NCBI GenBank assembly: GCA_020723325.1
Contig: DYJD01000005.1
Coordinates: 231,753 to 284,539, forward strand
DNA length: 52,787 nt
Origin: Desulfosudis oleivorans
GTDB lineage: Bacteria > Desulfobacterota > Desulfobacteria > Desulfobacterales > SURF-7
Direction of reading: 5' to 3'
The notes below the pieces were generated by a model, which made no database searches, had not been told where the DNA came from, and worked only from the letters and a program-made list of their open reading frames with translations. The position numbers and the translations under genes were made by a program. Positions 480 through 9,374 of the stretch are shown here, piece after piece (position 1 is the first letter of the stretch; each line of letters begins with the position of its first letter).

Positions 480-788
480 AGAATCCTCATTTTTCAATTA
501 GTTACCAATAGTTCTGCCATTGCTGGATATACAAAACAAAATTCTATATCGGATGTAATGGGCTTTGTAAACATTTTTTTCAGATCCGGATCTGTGGTGA
601 AAATTAGGTGTTATGAAAACCTTGATAAAGACCCATATGCCCCAGGCCGAATATTAAAAAAGAAAACGCATTTTTAAGTTGACAAGAAAAGCCGTTGCAC
701 TCTATCAATGGCAGAACAACTCGAAAATTCAGGTTATGGTCTGACAAAGCATTCAATATGTACCCGACAATCCCCATGGAGGTGTGAT
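480..788. other. Intergenic region upstream of metF
   Basis: This 309-bp gap separates two divergent genes. It carries the ribosome binding site of the left gene and a sigma-70-like promoter toward metF at 679-708. Short frames in it show no family resemblance and no good ribosome binding site. No other element was seen. Confidence 0.6.
679..708 (+). promoter_or_regulatory. Putative sigma-70 promoter of metF
   Basis: A perfect -35 TTGACA (679-684) is followed by an 18-bp spacer and a -10-like TATCAA (703-708). The coding start is about 80 bp downstream, behind GGAGG at 778-782. This is a sequence match only. Confidence 0.5.
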
Positions 789-1664
789 ATGGCTTTGAAG
801 AGGAACTTGGAGGCAGGACAATTTGTGATTCTGGCGGAAATGGAGCCTCCAAAAGGTGTGGATGTCACCGGTTTTGTCAACAATGCGCTTAAAGTCAAAG
901 GTGCCATTGACGCCTTTCTGATCCCTGAAATGAGCAACGCCGTAATGCGCATCAGCTCATTGGGGGGGGCCATGCTGCTGCAGTCCAAGGGAATGGAGAC
1001 TGTCATGCAGGTTTGCTGCCGGGATCGCAACCGGCTGGCTCTGCAAGCAGATTTATTGGCGGCTTATGCCTGCGGGATCAGCACAATCATGGCGGTCACA
1101 GGTGAGGATCCGACTTTCGGCGACCATCATAAGGCCAAAGCGGTTTACGATGTGGGGATGATCGAGCTGCTGCATGGAATTCGGGGGCTGCAGGACGGCA
1201 AGGATATGGCTGGCGTAGAACTTGCCGGTGCACCGGACTTTATGGTGGGCGGCGCGGTCAATACCGGCCTCAGCGGCCAGGCCCTGGAAGCCGAGCTTAA
1301 GGAGCTGGAAGATAAAATCAATGCCGGCGTACGCTTTTTGATAACCCCGCCGATTTTCGATCTGAGCGTGCTGGACAGGCTTGGCCAGATCATCCCGCGC
1401 AAGGATGTAAAAATCATCCCCACGGTCCTGCTGCTCAAATCCATGGGGATGGCGCGGTATATCGCCCGCAATGTTTCCCATATCCATGTTCCGGATGAAA
1501 TCATAACCCGGCTACAAAAGACCGGGGATAAGGTCCGTGAATGCATCCTCATCGCCCAGGAGACCATCAAGGCCTGCAAGGACAAAGGCTTCAGCGGCGT
1601 GCTGATTTCCACCATGGGATGGGAAAACAAACTTCCGGAGATAATTGGTGGAATGGGGGTTTAA
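789..1664 (+). CDS. metF: Methylenetetrahydrofolate reductase family protein (MetF)
   Basis: A 291-residue TIM-barrel flavoprotein of the MetF family, which interconverts 5,10-methylene-THF and 5-methyl-THF for methionine synthesis or the methyl branch of the Wood-Ljungdahl pathway. The N-terminal AEMEPPKG carries the conserved catalytic-type Glu. AVTGEDP and the following GDHHKAKAVYDVG match the folate/FAD loop region. A later segment, GVRFLITPPIFD, is also typical of the family. The start was placed at ATG 789 because GGAGG lies 6 bp upstream; longer in-frame starts have no such site and would add unconserved residues. The length fits short MetF forms of anaerobes that lack a regulatory domain. 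It converges on the ferritin-like gene and their stop codons overlap. No metV-like partner is adjacent. Family confident; physiological direction not determinable. Confidence 0.9.
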   Translation: MALKRNLEAGQFVILAEMEPPKGVDVTGFVNNALKVKGAIDAFLIPEMSNAVMRISSLGGAMLLQSKGMETVMQVCCRDRNRLALQADLLAAYACGISTIMAVTGEDPTFGDHHKAKAVYDVGMIELLHGIRGLQDGKDMAGVELAGAPDFMVGGAVNTGLSGQALEAELKELEDKINAGVRFLITPPIFDLSVLDRLGQIIPRKDVKIIPTVLLLKSMGMARYIARNVSHIHVPDEIITRLQKTGDKVRECILIAQETIKACKDKGFSGVLISTMGWENKLPEIIGGMGV

Positions 1665-1673
1665 TCCCCCATT
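1652..1673. terminator. Shared hairpin at convergent metF / ferritin-like gene ends
   Basis: A perfect 8-bp stem (AATGGGGG pairing with CCCCCATT) with a 6-nt loop contains both overlapping stop codons. Being symmetric, it can form in both transcripts. A real U-run is lacking (only ATTTT on the plus side), so it may stop transcripts weakly or protect 3' ends. Confidence 0.5.
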
Positions 1674-2116
1674 TTGGCCATATAATCGTCGTACATGGTT
1701 TCCAAAGTCAATTTGTGCTTAGCTTCTTCCTGGCACAAGATTTTAAAGAGTTTTTTCTGGTCGCCGGCATCAGTATGCTCCTGCAGATGATTATACAGAG
1801 CCAGGGCTTTTTCTTCCCGTTTCATGGCCACCATCAAAATCTCCTTATAGCCCATGCCCTTGCTGTATTCGAGATCGACCACAAAGTCGCTGCGTTTTAA
1901 ATCCGTGATCCACTCCATTTTGTAACCGACTAAAGCGCCGGCCGACAGACCCTGCAACATTTGCTGATGTTTTTTCTCTTCCTTGGCAAAATCCGCAAAA
2001 AGCTTTTTGGCGCCGGACATGCTTTCCTCTTTGCTGAGTTCCAGATAAAATGCTTCCGCCTCTTTTTCCTTTTCAATGGCATAGTCAATGACGGCTTTCA
2101 GGCTTTCAAATTTCAT
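1661..2116 (-). CDS. Rubrerythrin-like ferritin-superfamily protein
   Basis: A 151-residue four-helix diiron protein. Two E-x2-H motifs appear at E47-x2-H50 (EEKKH) and E131-x2-H134 (EEAKH), with further Glu in EKEAEAFY and KREEKALALY, the ligand pattern of the rubrerythrin/ferritin-like fold. The C-terminal rubredoxin domain of classical rubrerythrin is absent, so electrons would have to come from a separate partner. Known relatives reduce peroxide or handle iron in anaerobes, and a detoxification role is inferred. The start ATG is preceded by AAGGAG at good spacing. Its stop overlaps metF's stop by four bases in convergent orientation. Confidence 0.88.
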   Translation of the reverse strand: MKFESLKAVIDYAIEKEKEAEAFYLELSKEESMSGAKKLFADFAKEEKKHQQMLQGLSAGALVGYKMEWITDLKRSDFVVDLEYSKGMGYKEILMVAMKREEKALALYNHLQEHTDAGDQKKLFKILCQEEAKHKLTLETMYDDYMAKMGD

Positions 2117-2558
2117 GGAAATCTCCTTTTCGTCTGATCTGCTGCTGATATAAAACCGGTTGGTGCCTGCCTTTTTTTCACTTGAAGAAATTTTTATTTA
2201 ACAGAATTTGTGGAGGAATTCCATCTTTTCCTTATATCTATTCCCACAGGAAGAGCCCATGTAAAAGAAACTCTTTTATCGTGGTCGATTGAAACTCTAT
2301 ATAGATATGGACCTCGATCGCGACCCTGGAAAAAAGCTGCATGCAATCCTTATCTGCGCTGAAGCTGTGGATGTGTGGAATAATCAAACAGGGCTGTTGA
2401 AAATAGCAACACATATACAACAATCTTAATTATAAAGATAAAATGAATATTTTTCAGGTGCTTTTCCTTGTGGGTGTAGAGATATCCCCCAGTTGATCAA
2501 AGCCGGCTGAACTTCAAGCCGCTAGGCGGACATGCTTTAAAATTATGTAACATATTAA

Positions 2559-2590: not shown

Positions 2591-2606
2591 TGGCATCTGT
2601 CTTGCT
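2591..2606 (+). promoter_or_regulatory. Putative sigma-54 (-24/-12) promoter of GcvH-like operon
   Basis: TGGCATCTGTCTTGCT matches the sigma-54 consensus: GG at 2592-2593, exactly ten bases, then GC at 2604-2605, with the extended GGCA and TTGC words. Transcription would start near 2616, about 70 bp before the first ATG. Use of this promoter would need RpoN and an enhancer-binding protein not seen in this window. Confidence 0.55.
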
Positions 2607-2684: not shown

Positions 2685-3680
2685 ATGGCACTCAAAAATG
2701 AAGAAAAAAGAAGCCGGTTGGGGTATGGATCCACTTATATGAAGGGCGAAGGCCGGGATCAGGCGGACAACCAAGGGATTCGGACCGTGCTGGGCGGCCA
2801 GGTCTGGACGGTTGCGCCGGATAAACGGGCGGAAACGGCCAATCCCTGCATCTGGATGCAGGCCGGAGTAGCTAAATTCAAGAATTGCAACAACTACTAT
2901 GACTGCACCACCTGCAAATATGATTTCGGCATGCAGACCAAAGTCGCGGAAGGCAAACAGAGCAGTTGGCAGGATGCCATGCGCAAACGCTCCGCCTTGC
3001 AGCGGGTCTGCCGTCACAGTCTCACCCACCGCATTGAAAACCGCGCCTGCGCCTATGACTATCAATGCGCCTCCTGTGATTTTGATCAATATTTTGAAGA
3101 TGTCTGGACCGCCCGGGCCAGATCCTTCCCCAATGAGATCCGCAAGGTCAAAGGTTTTGCCCTGCCCCTGGATTACCACTTCCATATGGGCCACACCTGG
3201 GCCAGGATCGAGAGCGGCGGTTTTATCCGTATCGGCTTGGATGATTTTGCGCTGAAACTCTTGGGCAAGGCCGATGCCTTCCAACTGCCCTTGATGGGCA
3301 AGGAACTGGATCAGGGCAAGGTGGGCTGGGGTTTGAATCGGAAAGGCAACCTGGCCGACGTGCTTTCGCCGGTGGACGGGGTGATCATGGATGTGAATGC
3401 CAAAGTGCGCGAAAACCCGCAATTGGCCAACGGCGAGCCTTACGGCGACGGCTGGCTTTTCATGGTGCGCACCCCGGACGTGAAGCAAACCATGAAAAAT
3501 CTCATGGACAATCAACACAGCCTGACCTGGATCAATGACGAAATCAAGACCCTGGAGCAGATGATCGAAGGCGTGGCCGGCCCCCTGGCAGCCGACGGCG
3601 GATTTTTCACCGACGATATTTTCGGGGCCCTGCCGTCCCTGGGCTGGAAACAATTGACCAAGGCGTTCTTGAAAGCATAA
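2685..3680 (+). CDS. Cysteine-rich GcvH-like lipoyl-fold protein, copy 1
   Basis: A 331-residue protein. Residues about 160-300 match the glycine cleavage H-protein fold (YHFHMGHTWARIE, IRIGLDDFA, LSPVDGVIMDVN, YGDGWLFMV). The N-terminal half is unlike GcvH: it holds two copies of C-x12-C-x5-C-x2-C, at C55/68/74/77 and C109/122/128/131, suggesting two metal or Fe-S sites. The usual lipoyl Lys sits eight residues before the Pro of SPVDG; here that position is Gly and Lys is one residue further out (K220), so lipoylation is uncertain. The C-terminus ends in a region with AGPLAADGG that is also present in the downstream paralogue. The start ATG follows AAGGAG. It lies 27 bp before its paralogue behind a sigma-54-type promoter. 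No other glycine cleavage genes are nearby, so a role in glycine cleavage is doubtful. Confidence 0.85.
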   Translation: MALKNEEKRSRLGYGSTYMKGEGRDQADNQGIRTVLGGQVWTVAPDKRAETANPCIWMQAGVAKFKNCNNYYDCTTCKYDFGMQTKVAEGKQSSWQDAMRKRSALQRVCRHSLTHRIENRACAYDYQCASCDFDQYFEDVWTARARSFPNEIRKVKGFALPLDYHFHMGHTWARIESGGFIRIGLDDFALKLLGKADAFQLPLMGKELDQGKVGWGLNRKGNLADVLSPVDGVIMDVNAKVRENPQLANGEPYGDGWLFMVRTPDVKQTMKNLMDNQHSLTWINDEIKTLEQMIEGVAGPLAADGGFFTDDIFGALPSLGWKQLTKAFLKA

Positions 3681-3707
3681 ACAACCTGGAAAGACGAGGG
3701 CAACGCC

Positions 3708-4634
3708 ATGGGATCACTATGTTCTGTTCAAAAAAAGAAAGGCAACCAGCCGGCCTGTATCTGGATGCAGGCCGGCGTGGTGCCCCGCAAGATCTGCAAC
3801 CTGAATTATGATTGCGCCGCCTGCACCTTTGATCGCGCCATGACCCGGGCCGCGGATGAAAACCGGAAGTCCAGACTGGAAGGGAAAAGCCATGCCGGTG
3901 AATCGGGCCGGATTGTTTATTGGAAGGACAAACTGCGCGCCCTGCCCCCCTGGAAGCGGCCTTGCCTGCATCATATGAAAGGCCGAATCGACTTTCGGGC
4001 CTGCACCGGCGAATATCAATGCGGCAAATGTGACTTTGACCAATATTTCAACGACCAATACAGCGTGCATGCCCTGCTGCGCCCGGTGGAAGTCCTGGAT
4101 GTGGACGGATTCAAGGTGCCCCAGGGATTTTATCTGCACCGGGGCCACACCTGGCTGAAAGTGGAGGAAAACGCCGAAGTGCGCATCGGTCTGGATGATT
4201 TTGCCGCGCGCCTGCTCGGCCCCTTGAGTTATGTCGAAGCGCCTTTGTTGGGCAAGGAATTGCGCCAGGACCGCGCCGACATCCTGGTCCATCGGAAGGA
4301 GCGCAAGGCCCTGCTGCTGTCCCCTGTGAGCGGAGTGGTCACGGCCGTGAATTCGGCCCTCCGGGAAAAGGGCCGAAAGGTCAATGATGATCCTTACGCT
4401 TCCGGCTGGATCCTGCGGATTCAGGCCGATGATCTGCGCCGTGATTTAAAGAACCTGATGATCGGCGAGGAAACCGAGGCCTTTTTGGCAGAGGAGATCG
4501 ACCGGCTTTATCAAGTAATTGAAGACGAAGCCGGACCCCTGGCCGCCGACGGCGGCCAGTTGGGCAAGGATATTGCCGGAAACCTGCCCGGGCAAAGCTG
4601 GGACCGTTTGGTCAATCTCTTTCTGCACACCTAA
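3708..4634 (+). CDS. Cysteine-rich GcvH-like lipoyl-fold protein, copy 2
   Basis: A 308-residue paralogue of the preceding gene, cotranscribed after a 27-bp gap. It keeps the same doubled C-x12-C-x5-C-x2-C pattern (C17/30/36/39 and C86/99/105/108), the GcvH-like core (FYLHRGHTWLKVE, RIGLDDFAARLLG, LLSPVSGVVTAVN) and the C-terminal AGPLAADGG signature. Lys again lies nine residues before the Pro of SPVSG rather than the canonical eight. It lacks about 38 N-terminal residues present in copy 1. Both copies conserve CIWMQAGV at the first cysteine. Strict conservation of cysteine spacing while the rest diverges points to metal binding; this is inference. Start chosen at the ATG behind CGAGGG. It converges on the thiolase with only 13 bp between stops. 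Confidence 0.85.
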   Translation: MGSLCSVQKKKGNQPACIWMQAGVVPRKICNLNYDCAACTFDRAMTRAADENRKSRLEGKSHAGESGRIVYWKDKLRALPPWKRPCLHHMKGRIDFRACTGEYQCGKCDFDQYFNDQYSVHALLRPVEVLDVDGFKVPQGFYLHRGHTWLKVEENAEVRIGLDDFAARLLGPLSYVEAPLLGKELRQDRADILVHRKERKALLLSPVSGVVTAVNSALREKGRKVNDDPYASGWILRIQADDLRRDLKNLMIGEETEAFLAEEIDRLYQVIEDEAGPLAADGGQLGKDIAGNLPGQSWDRLVNLFLHT

Positions 4635-6101: not shown

Positions 6102-9100
6102 CTACATGCTTCGCCGATATCGGCCGCCCACTTCGTAGAGCGCCCGGGTGATCTGGCCCAGGGAGCAGACCCGCACGGTCTGCATCAATTCCTCAAAAAT
6201 ATTGGCGCCGGAAAGGGCCTTCTGCTGCAATCTAGCCAGGGCCGCCGGAGATTCTTTTTCATTGCGTTTCTTGAATTCAGCCAGCCGGGCCAATTGGGAC
6301 TGCTTTTCCTCTTCCGTGGCCCGGGCCAGCTCCAGATTGGAAGCGACTTCCGCCAGGGAAGCGTCCGGATTGAGAAAAGTATTGACGCCGATGATGGGCA
6401 GGGTGCCGGTATGCTTGCGCTGTTCGTAATACATGGACTCTTCCTGGATTTTGCTGCGTTGATAACCGGTCTCCATGGCGCCGAGCACCCCGCCCCGGGC
6501 CGTGATACGATCAAATTCCATGAGTACGGCTTCCTCCACCAGCCGGGTCAATTCCGCGACAATGAAACTGCCCTGATTGTTATTTTCATTCTTGGCCAGC
6601 CCCCATTCGCGATTGATGATCAATTGAATGGCCAAGGCCCGGCGGACGGATTCATTGCTGGGGGTGGTGATGGCTTCATCAAAAGCATTGGTGTGCAGGC
6701 TGTTGCAGTTGTCGTAAACAGCGCAAAGGGCCTGGAGGGTGGTGCGGATGTCGTTGAACTGAATTTCCTGGCTATGCAAGGAACGGCCGGAGGTCTGAAT
6801 ATGGTATTTGAGCATCTGGGACCGGGGGGCGGCCTGATATTTTTCCCGCAGGGCCACGGCCCAAATCCGTCGTGCCACCCGGCCCATGACCGTATATTCG
6901 GGATCCATGCCGTTGGAAAAGAAAAAGGATAAATTGGGCGCGAATTTGTCAAGGGACATGCCCCGGGACAGATAGTATTCCAGATAAGTGAAGCCATTGG
7001 CCAGGGTCAGGGCCAGTTGGGTAATGGGATTGGCTCCAGCTTCGGCAATGTGATACCCGGAAATGGAGACCGAATAGAAATTGCGCACATCGTTTTGGAT
7101 GAAAAATTCCTGGATGTCACCCATCATTTTCAGGGCGAATTCAATGGAGAAGATACAGGTGTTCTGGCCCTGATCCTCCTTTAAAATATCCGCCTGGACC
7201 GTGCCGCGGATGTTGGATAGCACCATGGCGCGAATGCGTTGGGCCTCCTCGACTGTGGGCGGAGAGCCTTTTTCAGCCTCATATCCGGCCATCTGCTGAT
7301 CTATGGCGGTATTCATGAACATGGCCAGGATAATGGGCGCCGGACCGTTGATGGTCATTGAAACCGATGTGCTGGGAGAGCACAGGTCAAAACCGCCATA
7401 GAGCACATGCATATCGTCCAGGGTGCAGATGCTGACGCCGGAGGTGCCGATCTTACCGTAGATGTCCGGCCGGATGTCCGGATCATACCCGTACAGGGTG
7501 ACGGAATCAAAGGCCGTGGAGAGCCGGGTGGCCTTATAATCAGAGGACAGCAGCTTGAAACGCTTGTTGGTCCTGGCCGGCCCGCCTTCGCCGGCAAACA
7601 TGCGCGTGGGATCTTCATCGGCCCGTTTCAGGGGAAACACGCCGGCGGTGTAGGGAAATCGGCCGGGGACGTTTTCTTCCCGCATGAAACGGTAGATTTC
7701 AGCAGGATCGGTGTAGCGCGGCAAGGCCACTCTGGGAATCTTCAAATGGGACAGGGATTCGCTGAAGAGCGGCAGTTGCATCTTGCGCTCACGGATCTCG
7801 AATTCCAACTGGTCCTGGTGGTAATCCCGGCTGATTTCCTCCCATTCAGCCATGAGCCGGGTGGTTTCCGGGGCCAGCAAGTTCCCAAAGCGGTCGGCTT
7901 CATCCAGCAGATGATCACGCATGACTGCTTTTTCTTCCGGATCGGTCGCATGGCTTAGGAGCGCCGCGGTTTCCCGCAGGTGCCAGCAATTCCGCAGCAC
8001 CAGGGCCTGCTTTTCCGTCTGCTGATGATAGGTTCTGACCGTATCGGCGATTTCGGAAAGATAGCGCGTACGCGTGGGCGGAATGATGATGGTCTTGGAG
8101 GAGGAAAACTTGTTCTCCAAAAGGGGGAGATGCGATTTGAAATCCACCCCGATTTTACGGGATATGGTGGCCAGAATGGCCTGATACAACGCGGTAACGC
8201 CGTCGTCATTGAATTTGGCGGCAATGGTGCCGAAAACCGGCATTTTTTCCGGAGGCATATCCCAGGCCTTGCGGTTGCGCTGCACTTGTTTTCTGACATC
8301 CCGCAGGGCGTCCTCGCTGCCTTGTTTATCGAATTTGTTCACCGCCACCAGGTCGGCATAGTCCAGCATGTCGATTTTTTCCAATTGGGAAGCAGCGCCG
8401 AATTCACTGGTCATGACGTAAATGGAGACATCCGTCATATCAAAGATGCGTGAATCGCCCTGACCGATACCGGCGGTTTCGGCGATGATCAGATCAAAGC
8501 CGGCGGCCTTTACCACATCAATGGCCTCGGGCATGGCCAGGGGGATCTCCATGTGAGAGCGTCTGGTGGCCAGACTGCGGGTGTAGATACGCGGGTTGTC
8601 GATGGCGTTCATGCGGATGCGGTCGCCCAGCAGGGCTCCGCCGGTTTTACGGCGGGAAGGATCGCCGCAGAGCACGGCCACGTGAAGATCCTTTTGATCC
8701 AGCAGAAGTCTCAGGATGAATTCGTCTGTCAGGGAGGATTTCCCGGCGCCGCCGGTTCCGGTGATGCCGATCACCGGCACTTTCCGCTCCCCTTGTTTTT
8801 GATGCAGGCCGGCCTGGATCCTTTCAAGGCGGCTGTCGTTGGTCTCCTTCAAGAGCATGACAGCGGAAATGAATTTGGCCAGGGCTGAGCGGTTGTTCAC
8901 GGAAAGGGCGTCTATGTCCAGGGTATCCACATCCGCTGTAGCAAAATCAAGCTGCTCCAGCATGTGGTTGATCATGCCCTGAAGCCCCATTTGGGCGCCG
9001 TCTTCCGGGGAATAAATTTTGGAAATCCCGTAAGCCTCCAGCTCTTTGATTTCCTCCGGAACAATGACCCCGCCGCCGCCGCCGAATATTTTAATGTGCC

Positions 9101-9374
9101 GGGCGGATTCGGCTTTTAACAGATCGGCCATATATTTAAAGAATTCCATATGACCGCCCTGGTAGCTGGACACGGCCACGCCGTTGGCGTCTTCTTCCAC
9201 GGCGGCATTGACGATTTCTTTCACAGAGCGGTTATGCCCGAGATGGATTACTTCGGCGCCGGAATCCTGTAGGATTCTGCGCATGATATTGATGGCAGCG
9301 TCATGGCCGTCGAATAAGGAAGTGGCCGTGACAATGCGGATATTGTTTTTTGGTCTGTAGGGAACCGGCTGCAT
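6102..9374 (-). CDS. icmF: Fused isobutyryl-CoA mutase (IcmF)
   Basis: At 1090 residues this has the full IcmF length. Residues about 10-140 form the B12-binding domain ([10 protein letters not shown] with the cobalt-coordinating His24, IFGGGGGV). Residues about 198-410 form the MeaB-like G-protein chaperone (Walker A GTGGAGKS at 206-213, VNKFD for guanine). The remainder is the mutase barrel ([24 protein letters not shown]-like loop, GMDPEY). The position equivalent to the mutase Tyr that contacts substrate is Phe (YTAGVF), and the carboxylate-binding Arg is Gln (DQGQNTCIF), as in isobutyryl-CoA rather than methylmalonyl-CoA mutases. It interconverts isobutyryl- and n-butyryl-CoA using adenosylcobalamin. 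RBS AAGGAGA precedes the ATG. It follows a tetR gene by 29 bp and is probably controlled by it. Confidence 0.95.

Follow-up and report, generated by a model that had tools for sequence, protein, structure and literature searches.

A tandem pair of cysteine-rich H-protein-like genes associated with a two-component system and an archaemetzincin in a sulfate-reducer-type bacterium

Introduction

The operons that encode the H-protein-like protein GcvH-L include a SirTM sirtuin and a macrodomain protein. To our knowledge, GcvH-L has no cysteine domain. A second group of GcvH-like proteins, LbpA, belongs to Hdr-like sulfur oxidation; its members share a strictly conserved lysine and mostly have two conserved cysteines, near the N- and the C-terminus, some archaeal proteins excepted (PMC6067878). 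For the archaemetzincin proteases (peptidase M54), it has been stated that "very little is known" about their biological importance (PMC3427221). Glutamate-synthase-like and HdrA-like parts are joined in the HdrL of Desulfobacterium autotrophicum, and the 2009 paper on this organism mentions neither gcvH nor glycine cleavage in its main text (PMC2702500). The main text of the papers on the sigma-54 regulome and the regulator targets of D. vulgaris is likewise free of the terms glycine cleavage, GcvH and lipoyl (PMC4641369, PMC3333781).

Here we analyze two tandem cysteine-rich H-protein-like genes, A1 and A2, of a sulfate-reducer-type bacterium. They lie in a stretch of 52,787 nt from Desulfosudis oleivorans (contig DYJD01000005.1 of assembly GCA_020723325.1, positions 231,753-284,539, forward strand), which we call the window. 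An initial annotation, made from the sequence, knew of no described function for their architecture, and our survey of the open-licence literature found none either; nor did it find a description of A1 and A2 together with the signaling and protease genes reported below. They apparently represent an undescribed variant of the H-protein fold within a signaling-protease set that seems to be undescribed as well. Our preferred reading, to which we give a probability of roughly 45%, is that A1 and A2 are inducible metal-binding adaptors of Hdr-type redox complexes under the control of a dedicated two-component system.

Materials and Methods

The family search was run on the window's own genome together with 39 relatives; 34 of these 40 genomes gave matches, many of them to ordinary H-proteins. 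The alignment set consists of 56 proteins scoring above 80 bits, A1 and A2 included, from 38 genomic stretches (L034-L071), and the wider set of 45 matched pieces from 20 further stretches of the phylum (L156-L175). Promoters and gene linkage were counted on the best 80 of 445 confirmed relatives, many of these 80 loci being cut by contig ends. Sigma-54 sites were scored out of 14 from sequence evidence alone, and scores of 13 or 14 were taken as strong. The computed parts of our model are the architecture, the conservation of the cysteines, the loss of the lysine, the promoter and palindrome, the gene linkage and the fusions.

Results

The features of the locus are collected in Table 1. The cysteine spacing described in the initial annotation, C-x12-C-x5-C-x2-C twice in each protein, is present: A1 has C55/68/74/77 and C109/122/128/131 and no other cysteine, while A2 has C17/30/36/39 and C86/99/105/108, with an extra cysteine at position 5. 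To call the two proteins otherwise well diverged was too strong, since they are 41% identical over 290 residues and are thus plain paralogues. The eight positions are cysteine in 54-56 of the 56 family members, so the spacing is not a product of chance; the departures come from a truncated protein and from a fusion (in L071) in which the apparent first "block" probably belongs to ferredoxin sequence. Two exact x12 blocks occur in 45 of the 56 and, if x13 is allowed, in 54. Beyond the N-terminal domain, the alignment contains no conserved cysteine. Judging from this pattern, the four-cysteine sites of A1 and A2 may hold metal, either a [4Fe-4S] cluster or zinc.

Table 1. Features of the A1-A2 locus in window coordinates.
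Feature	Position	Strand	Description
MetF-like protein	708..1664	+	Pfam MTHFR 92 bits (cut-off 24); relative of at least 52% identity at 11/80 loci
Rubrerythrin/ferritin-like protein	1661..2116	-	Pfam Rubrerythrin 48 bits (cut-off 22.8); relative at 12/80 loci
Candidate enhancer (NtrC-type regulator site)	2395..2411	+	Perfect palindrome TGTWG-N7-CWACA; the sigma-54 site follows 196 bp downstream
Predicted sigma-54 (-24/-12) promoter of A1-A2	2591..2605	+	TGGCAT-N5-TTGC
A1	2685..3680	+	331 aa; Cys4-Cys4 domain, H-protein-like domain, C-terminal extension
A1 cysteine block 1 (C55-C77)	2847..2915	+	
A1 cysteine block 2 (C109-C131)	3009..3077	+	
A1 H-protein-like domain	3162..3521	+	Lys220 codon 3342-3344
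A2	3708..4634	+	308 aa; same architecture as A1
A2 cysteine block 1 (C17-C39)	3756..3824	+	
A2 cysteine block 2 (C86-C108)	3963..4031	+	
A2 H-protein-like domain	4113..4496	+	Lys197 codon 4296-4298
A2 C-terminal extension	4497..4631	+	Helix, then conserved GG...D...W...F positions; common to the family

The GcvH-like domain recognized by the initial annotation is genuine, with matches of 75 and 77 bits to Pfam GCV_H (PF01597, cut-off 22.2). An AlphaFold2 model of A2, built from 80 aligned sequences (mean pLDDT 88.8), matches solved H-proteins over residues 135-267 (1htp, Z 19.3, 1.5 Å over 131 residues). In the first 130-160 residues, Pfam and NCBIfam gave only sub-threshold matches (E 0.4 to 0.9). 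Modeled alone, the cysteine domain reached a pLDDT of 80.3; Foldseek found no match to it in the PDB (best E 4.8), VIA-align against 14 chains returned nothing with a Z-score of 2 or more, and the fold search with full-length A2 barely covered this part. A known fold for the cysteine domain is unsupported by Foldseek and VIA-align, in which small metal domains are easily missed, and these searches do not establish a new fold.

The lysine of the H-protein-like domain had been described as displaced by one residue, and alignments to solved H-proteins place it just so, one residue before the lipoylated lysine, whose own position is occupied by Gly221 in A1 and Glu198 in A2. Only 6 of the 56 family members have lysine at the lipoyl position, and the preceding residue is lysine in 19 and glycine in 17; an arginine two positions ahead of the canonical one is conserved in 52. 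In the wider set, the canonical lysine is found in 3 of 41 pieces (the 45 pieces minus four from the cysteine domain that lack the hairpin). As the displaced lysine is not conserved, lipoylation of A1 and A2 appears unlikely from the alignments, and we rejected a lipoyl-type carrier acting through Lys220. That the neighboring lysine replaces the canonical one in a lipoylated carrier like LbpA strikes us as very improbable: although the Hdr linkage and the H-protein fold are common to both, the LbpA lysine is strictly conserved (PMC6067878), and neither position is conserved here.

No gcvP or gcvT was recognized among the open reading frames overlapping positions 1-30000 of the window, in agreement with the initial annotation. 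The gcvT, gcvH, gcvPA and gcvPB genes of the genome run together on another contig (C80), where gcvH scores 137 bits. A radical-SAM gene follows this run; Pfam says only Radical_SAM, and we read it as lipA. A1 and A2 stay below the NCBIfam cut-offs for gcvH, with 75.2 and 79.9 bits against 117 and 70.2 and 78.7 bits against 115.85. These scores, the unconserved lysine and the canonical genes elsewhere led us to reject a part in the glycine cleavage system, as had been suspected from the sequence. For GcvH-L (TIGR03077, cut-off 144.05), the two proteins reach 39.1 and 40.8 bits, and inspection by eye recognized no sirtuin or macrodomain gene beside them. Because the defining lipoyl lysine was looked for and is absent, A1 and A2 are assigned neither to GcvH nor to LbpA.

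When 297 genomes of the phylum were sampled, 89, the window's own among them, had a family match at E 1e-30 or better; relatives without the cysteine domain are included in this count. Several relatives are fusions. Two proteins (L071:7397-8677 and L169:4809-6089) combine a NuoG-type Fer2 and Fer4 N-terminus with a cysteine block and GCV_H, in clusters with NuoE/NuoF-type genes; an HdrA-like protein (L168:7708-11109) carries an H-like domain at its C-terminus, and so do two proteins with FlpD and molybdopterin parts (L158:8607-11522 and L159:5136-8099). It is mainly these fusions of the H-like domain that place A1 and A2 with electron-transfer enzymes. Cysteine-free GcvH-like relatives, mostly of about 210-300 residues, also occur in tandem (L166, L167, L175) and keep the C-terminal extension of the family; those in L175 lie beside NrfD, 4Fe-4S and M54 genes, and a single one among those listed (L167:13127-13837) has the canonical lysine. 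The proposal of a redox or carrier protein thus survives in its first half, by linkage and fusions to redox enzymes, and fails for a lipoyl-type carrier using Lys220.

The pair is also present in the cultivated bacteria Desulfosarcina alkanivorans PL12 and D. widdelii PP31 (L142, L155). Its genomic surroundings are recurrent. In the usual order, A1>A2> <M54<RR<HK, the pair faces genes for an archaemetzincin (M54), a response regulator (RR) and a kinase (HK), often followed by HdrL>MvhD> and at times by MetV>MetF>. Raw counts over the 80 loci are 59 for M54, 58 for RR, 52 for HK, 39 for HdrL, 27 for MvhD, 17 for MetF, 12 for the ferritin-like gene and 9 for MetV. Where enough flank is available downstream of A2, M54 is found at 46 of 54 loci, RR at 47 of 52, HK at 41 of 47 and HdrL at 26 of 42; at the 8 of 54 loci without M54 within 4 kb, five have it nowhere on the available stretch. 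Upstream of A1, 18 of 49 loci have a MetF-like or a ferritin-like gene no more than 3.5 kb away. Over the 40 genomes, 23 have both a cysteine domain and an M54 match above the cut-off, 2 only the former, 1 only the latter and 14 neither (Fisher 7e-8, a value that serves only as a guide, as the genomes are related). In the window's own genome the set is split: the MetF-like and rubrerythrin-like genes, A1 and A2 are on one contig (C64), and another (C76) carries overlapping HK, RR and M54 frames divergent from HdrL-MvhD-MetV-MetF. The pair in the window does not adjoin HdrL.

The ferritin-like neighbors bear on the view that A1 and A2 store or deliver zinc or iron, with their turnover controlled by the archaemetzincin, itself a zinc protein. 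The eight conserved cysteines would suit such a role, as would the rubrerythrin/ferritin-like gene near A1, but storage has no need of an H-protein fold and HdrL is linked more than three times as often as the ferritin-like gene; we judge it improbable. A link to the thiolase and mutase neighbors in the window was rejected, as it recurs at 0 of the 80 loci. The mutase (6102-9374, minus strand) is a large protein that by reading resembles the fused mutase/GTPase IcmF, has no match at the 80 loci and sits between genes likewise read as thiolase-like and TetR-like. Positions 13-279 of the window hold a simple Ala/Ser/Leu repeat frame from repetitive DNA.

Pfam confirmed the kinase, the NtrC-type regulator and Peptidase_M54 at a representative locus (L041), and the regulator, MvhD (FlpD) and MetV (MTHFR C-terminal family) in the window's own genome. 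Both regulators consist of a receiver, Sigma54_activat and HTH_8. All 24 kinases scanned, including the window genome's own, have PAS, HisKA and HATPase domains, and their first 120 residues contain a GGG-bearing Rossmann-like pattern. Pfam GFO_IDH_MocA matches this region weakly in 7 of the 24 (E up to 0.5, best 1.9e-4), and a profile of it finds Gfo/Idh/MocA oxidoreductases first (E 0.005); a search with it as a single sequence returned nothing relevant. The weak Rossmann assignment suggests that the N-terminus may be a dinucleotide sensor. The window genome's archaemetzincin passes NF033823 (163.8 bits, cut-off 145), and 59 of the 60 M54 matches retain the catalytic motif HExxHx5HCx4CxM. 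In the linked flavoprotein of 1400 residues, a part resembling glutamate synthase is combined with HdrA-like parts, and its HdrA equivalog scores are below the cut-off.

A strong sigma-54 site precedes A1 at 64 of 70 scored loci (0.6-0.9% in shuffles), leaving six upstream regions without one, and A2 at 0 of 72. In a second locus set, which overlaps the 80 loci and includes the window, it precedes 17 of 18 scored A1 genes. No such site was found before HdrL (0/36), HK (0/46), RR (0/53), M54 (0/57), MvhD (0/27), MetV (0/11) or the ferritin-like gene (0/12), and MetF had one at 1 of 17 loci. The whole cluster as a single sigma-54 regulon is unsupported, the promoter being regular only at the A1-A2 pair. 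At the locus of a record labeled SAR324 cluster bacterium (L124), A1-A2, M54, RR, HK and HdrL stand in the usual order, and a sigma-54 site was not found upstream of A1.

A dyad search upstream of A1 yielded TGTAG- and TGTTG-N7 dyads in seven loci each, with at most four in ten shuffles. The merged palindrome, TGTWG-N7-CWACA, is present within 250 bp upstream of the promoter at 58 of 65 loci with at most one mismatch, perfectly at 34, and absent at this tolerance from 7; the same tolerance gives 2.2% in shuffles and 3.3% in 3713 tiling 250-bp stretches of the same loci, targets included, and the excess exists partly by construction, as the palindrome was derived from these upstream regions. 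It often lies near -117, -206 and -227 from the promoter. Among the 19 palindromes and 49 exact sigma-54 sites listed for the window's own genome, a palindrome and a site lie within 250 bp of each other only upstream of A1; in the next nearest pair they are separated by 1.5 kb. That the palindrome marks a wide regulon in this genome is unsupported (19 sites against 18 for a reversed-pattern control).

Among single-copy or distant family genes, 17 of 29 have a promoter score of 13 or more; a score of at least 12 is reached by 19, nine of which carry the palindrome with at most one mismatch. A palindrome unique to the regulator of the pair is therefore unsupported, and related regulators may share the site, which is no proof of a private regulator. 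Taken by comparison across loci, the predicted regulatory architecture of A1-A2 is strongly supported. Neither the promoter and palindrome nor the links to the two-component, archaemetzincin and Hdr genes figured in the initial annotation.

In a different reading, A1 and A2 would not be subunits of an Hdr complex but would sense redox state or metal and act back on the kinase of their own set, or be cut by the archaemetzincin as a step in signaling, with the Hdr linkage reflecting shared regulation. The unit of kinase, regulator, protease and cysteine protein does recur in stretches without an HdrA-like match (e.g. L174), and one protein that has no match to the rest of the family (L169:488-1054) contains the cysteine domain as well. 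Yet the H-like domain is fused to HdrA-like, FlpD/molybdopterin and NuoG-type proteins, which suggests enzyme complexes, and it would be unusual for the sensor to be the sigma-54 target itself, as a sensor must pre-exist induction. We find the sensor role doubtful.

Discussion

In our preferred reading, a two-component system would have A1 and A2 as its dedicated, inducible output. The sensor kinase, with its Rossmann-like N-terminus, PAS domain and kinase core, would phosphorylate the NtrC-type regulator, which would bind the TGTWG-N7-CWACA palindromes and activate sigma-54 transcription of A1-A2. The products would be non-lipoylated proteins of the H-protein fold, with metal, [4Fe-4S] or zinc, bound at both four-cysteine sites. 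Their most likely docking partners, contacted by the H-like domain, would be flavin-based electron-transfer enzymes of the Hdr type, HdrL-MvhD and in part those with MetV-MetF, the methylene-THF reductase branch, on which they would act as redox adaptors or regulatory subunits. The archaemetzincin, encoded by the third gene of the kinase-regulator operon, may trim or remove them. A more far-reaching version, in which a redox-sensing kinase induces paired, non-lipoylated metalloproteins of the H-protein fold as switchable adaptors of electron-bifurcating Hdr-type enzymes and a dedicated archaemetzincin removes them, forming an undescribed control system of anaerobes, is at present speculative and in our view rather unlikely to hold in full.

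Several points give the locus a wider meaning. An H-protein fold without a lipoate site is joined to a cysteine domain that lies below every Pfam and NCBIfam cut-off, in a family that is common within the phylum. An archaemetzincin is tied to a defined signaling operon and to one candidate pair of substrates, which makes its role directly testable; if the proposal is true, a bacterial archaemetzincin gains both a substrate and a role. The set further suggests that Hdr-type electron transfer has a regulated component in anaerobes of the Desulfobacterota type.

Compared with known systems, A1 and A2 share fold and sequence homology with the H-protein of glycine cleavage (PF01597, NF002270, TIGR00527) over residues 136-263 of A2, approximately, but have no conserved lipoyl lysine, carry an additional Cys4x2 domain and a C-terminal extension, and are not linked to gcvP or gcvT. 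They resemble the GcvH-L of SirTM operons as an H-protein fold outside glycine cleavage (PMC4518038; 5a35, Z 11.9). With LbpA they have in common that a GcvH-like protein is genetically tied to Hdr-type genes; unlike LbpA (PMC6067878), they have eight N-terminal cysteines, no conserved lysine and partners of the HdrL-MvhD type. The linked protease has the family score and catalytic motif of archaemetzincins, but shares its operon here with a two-component system of the sigma-54 type, a setting that did not appear in the titles and abstract beginnings surveyed. The linked flavoprotein corresponds to the HdrL of D. autotrophicum in its glutamate-synthase-like and HdrA-like join (PMC2702500), and the succession of HdrL, MvhD, MetV and MetF resembles the methylene-THF reductases of the MetVF type (PMC9430772, PMC8760232).
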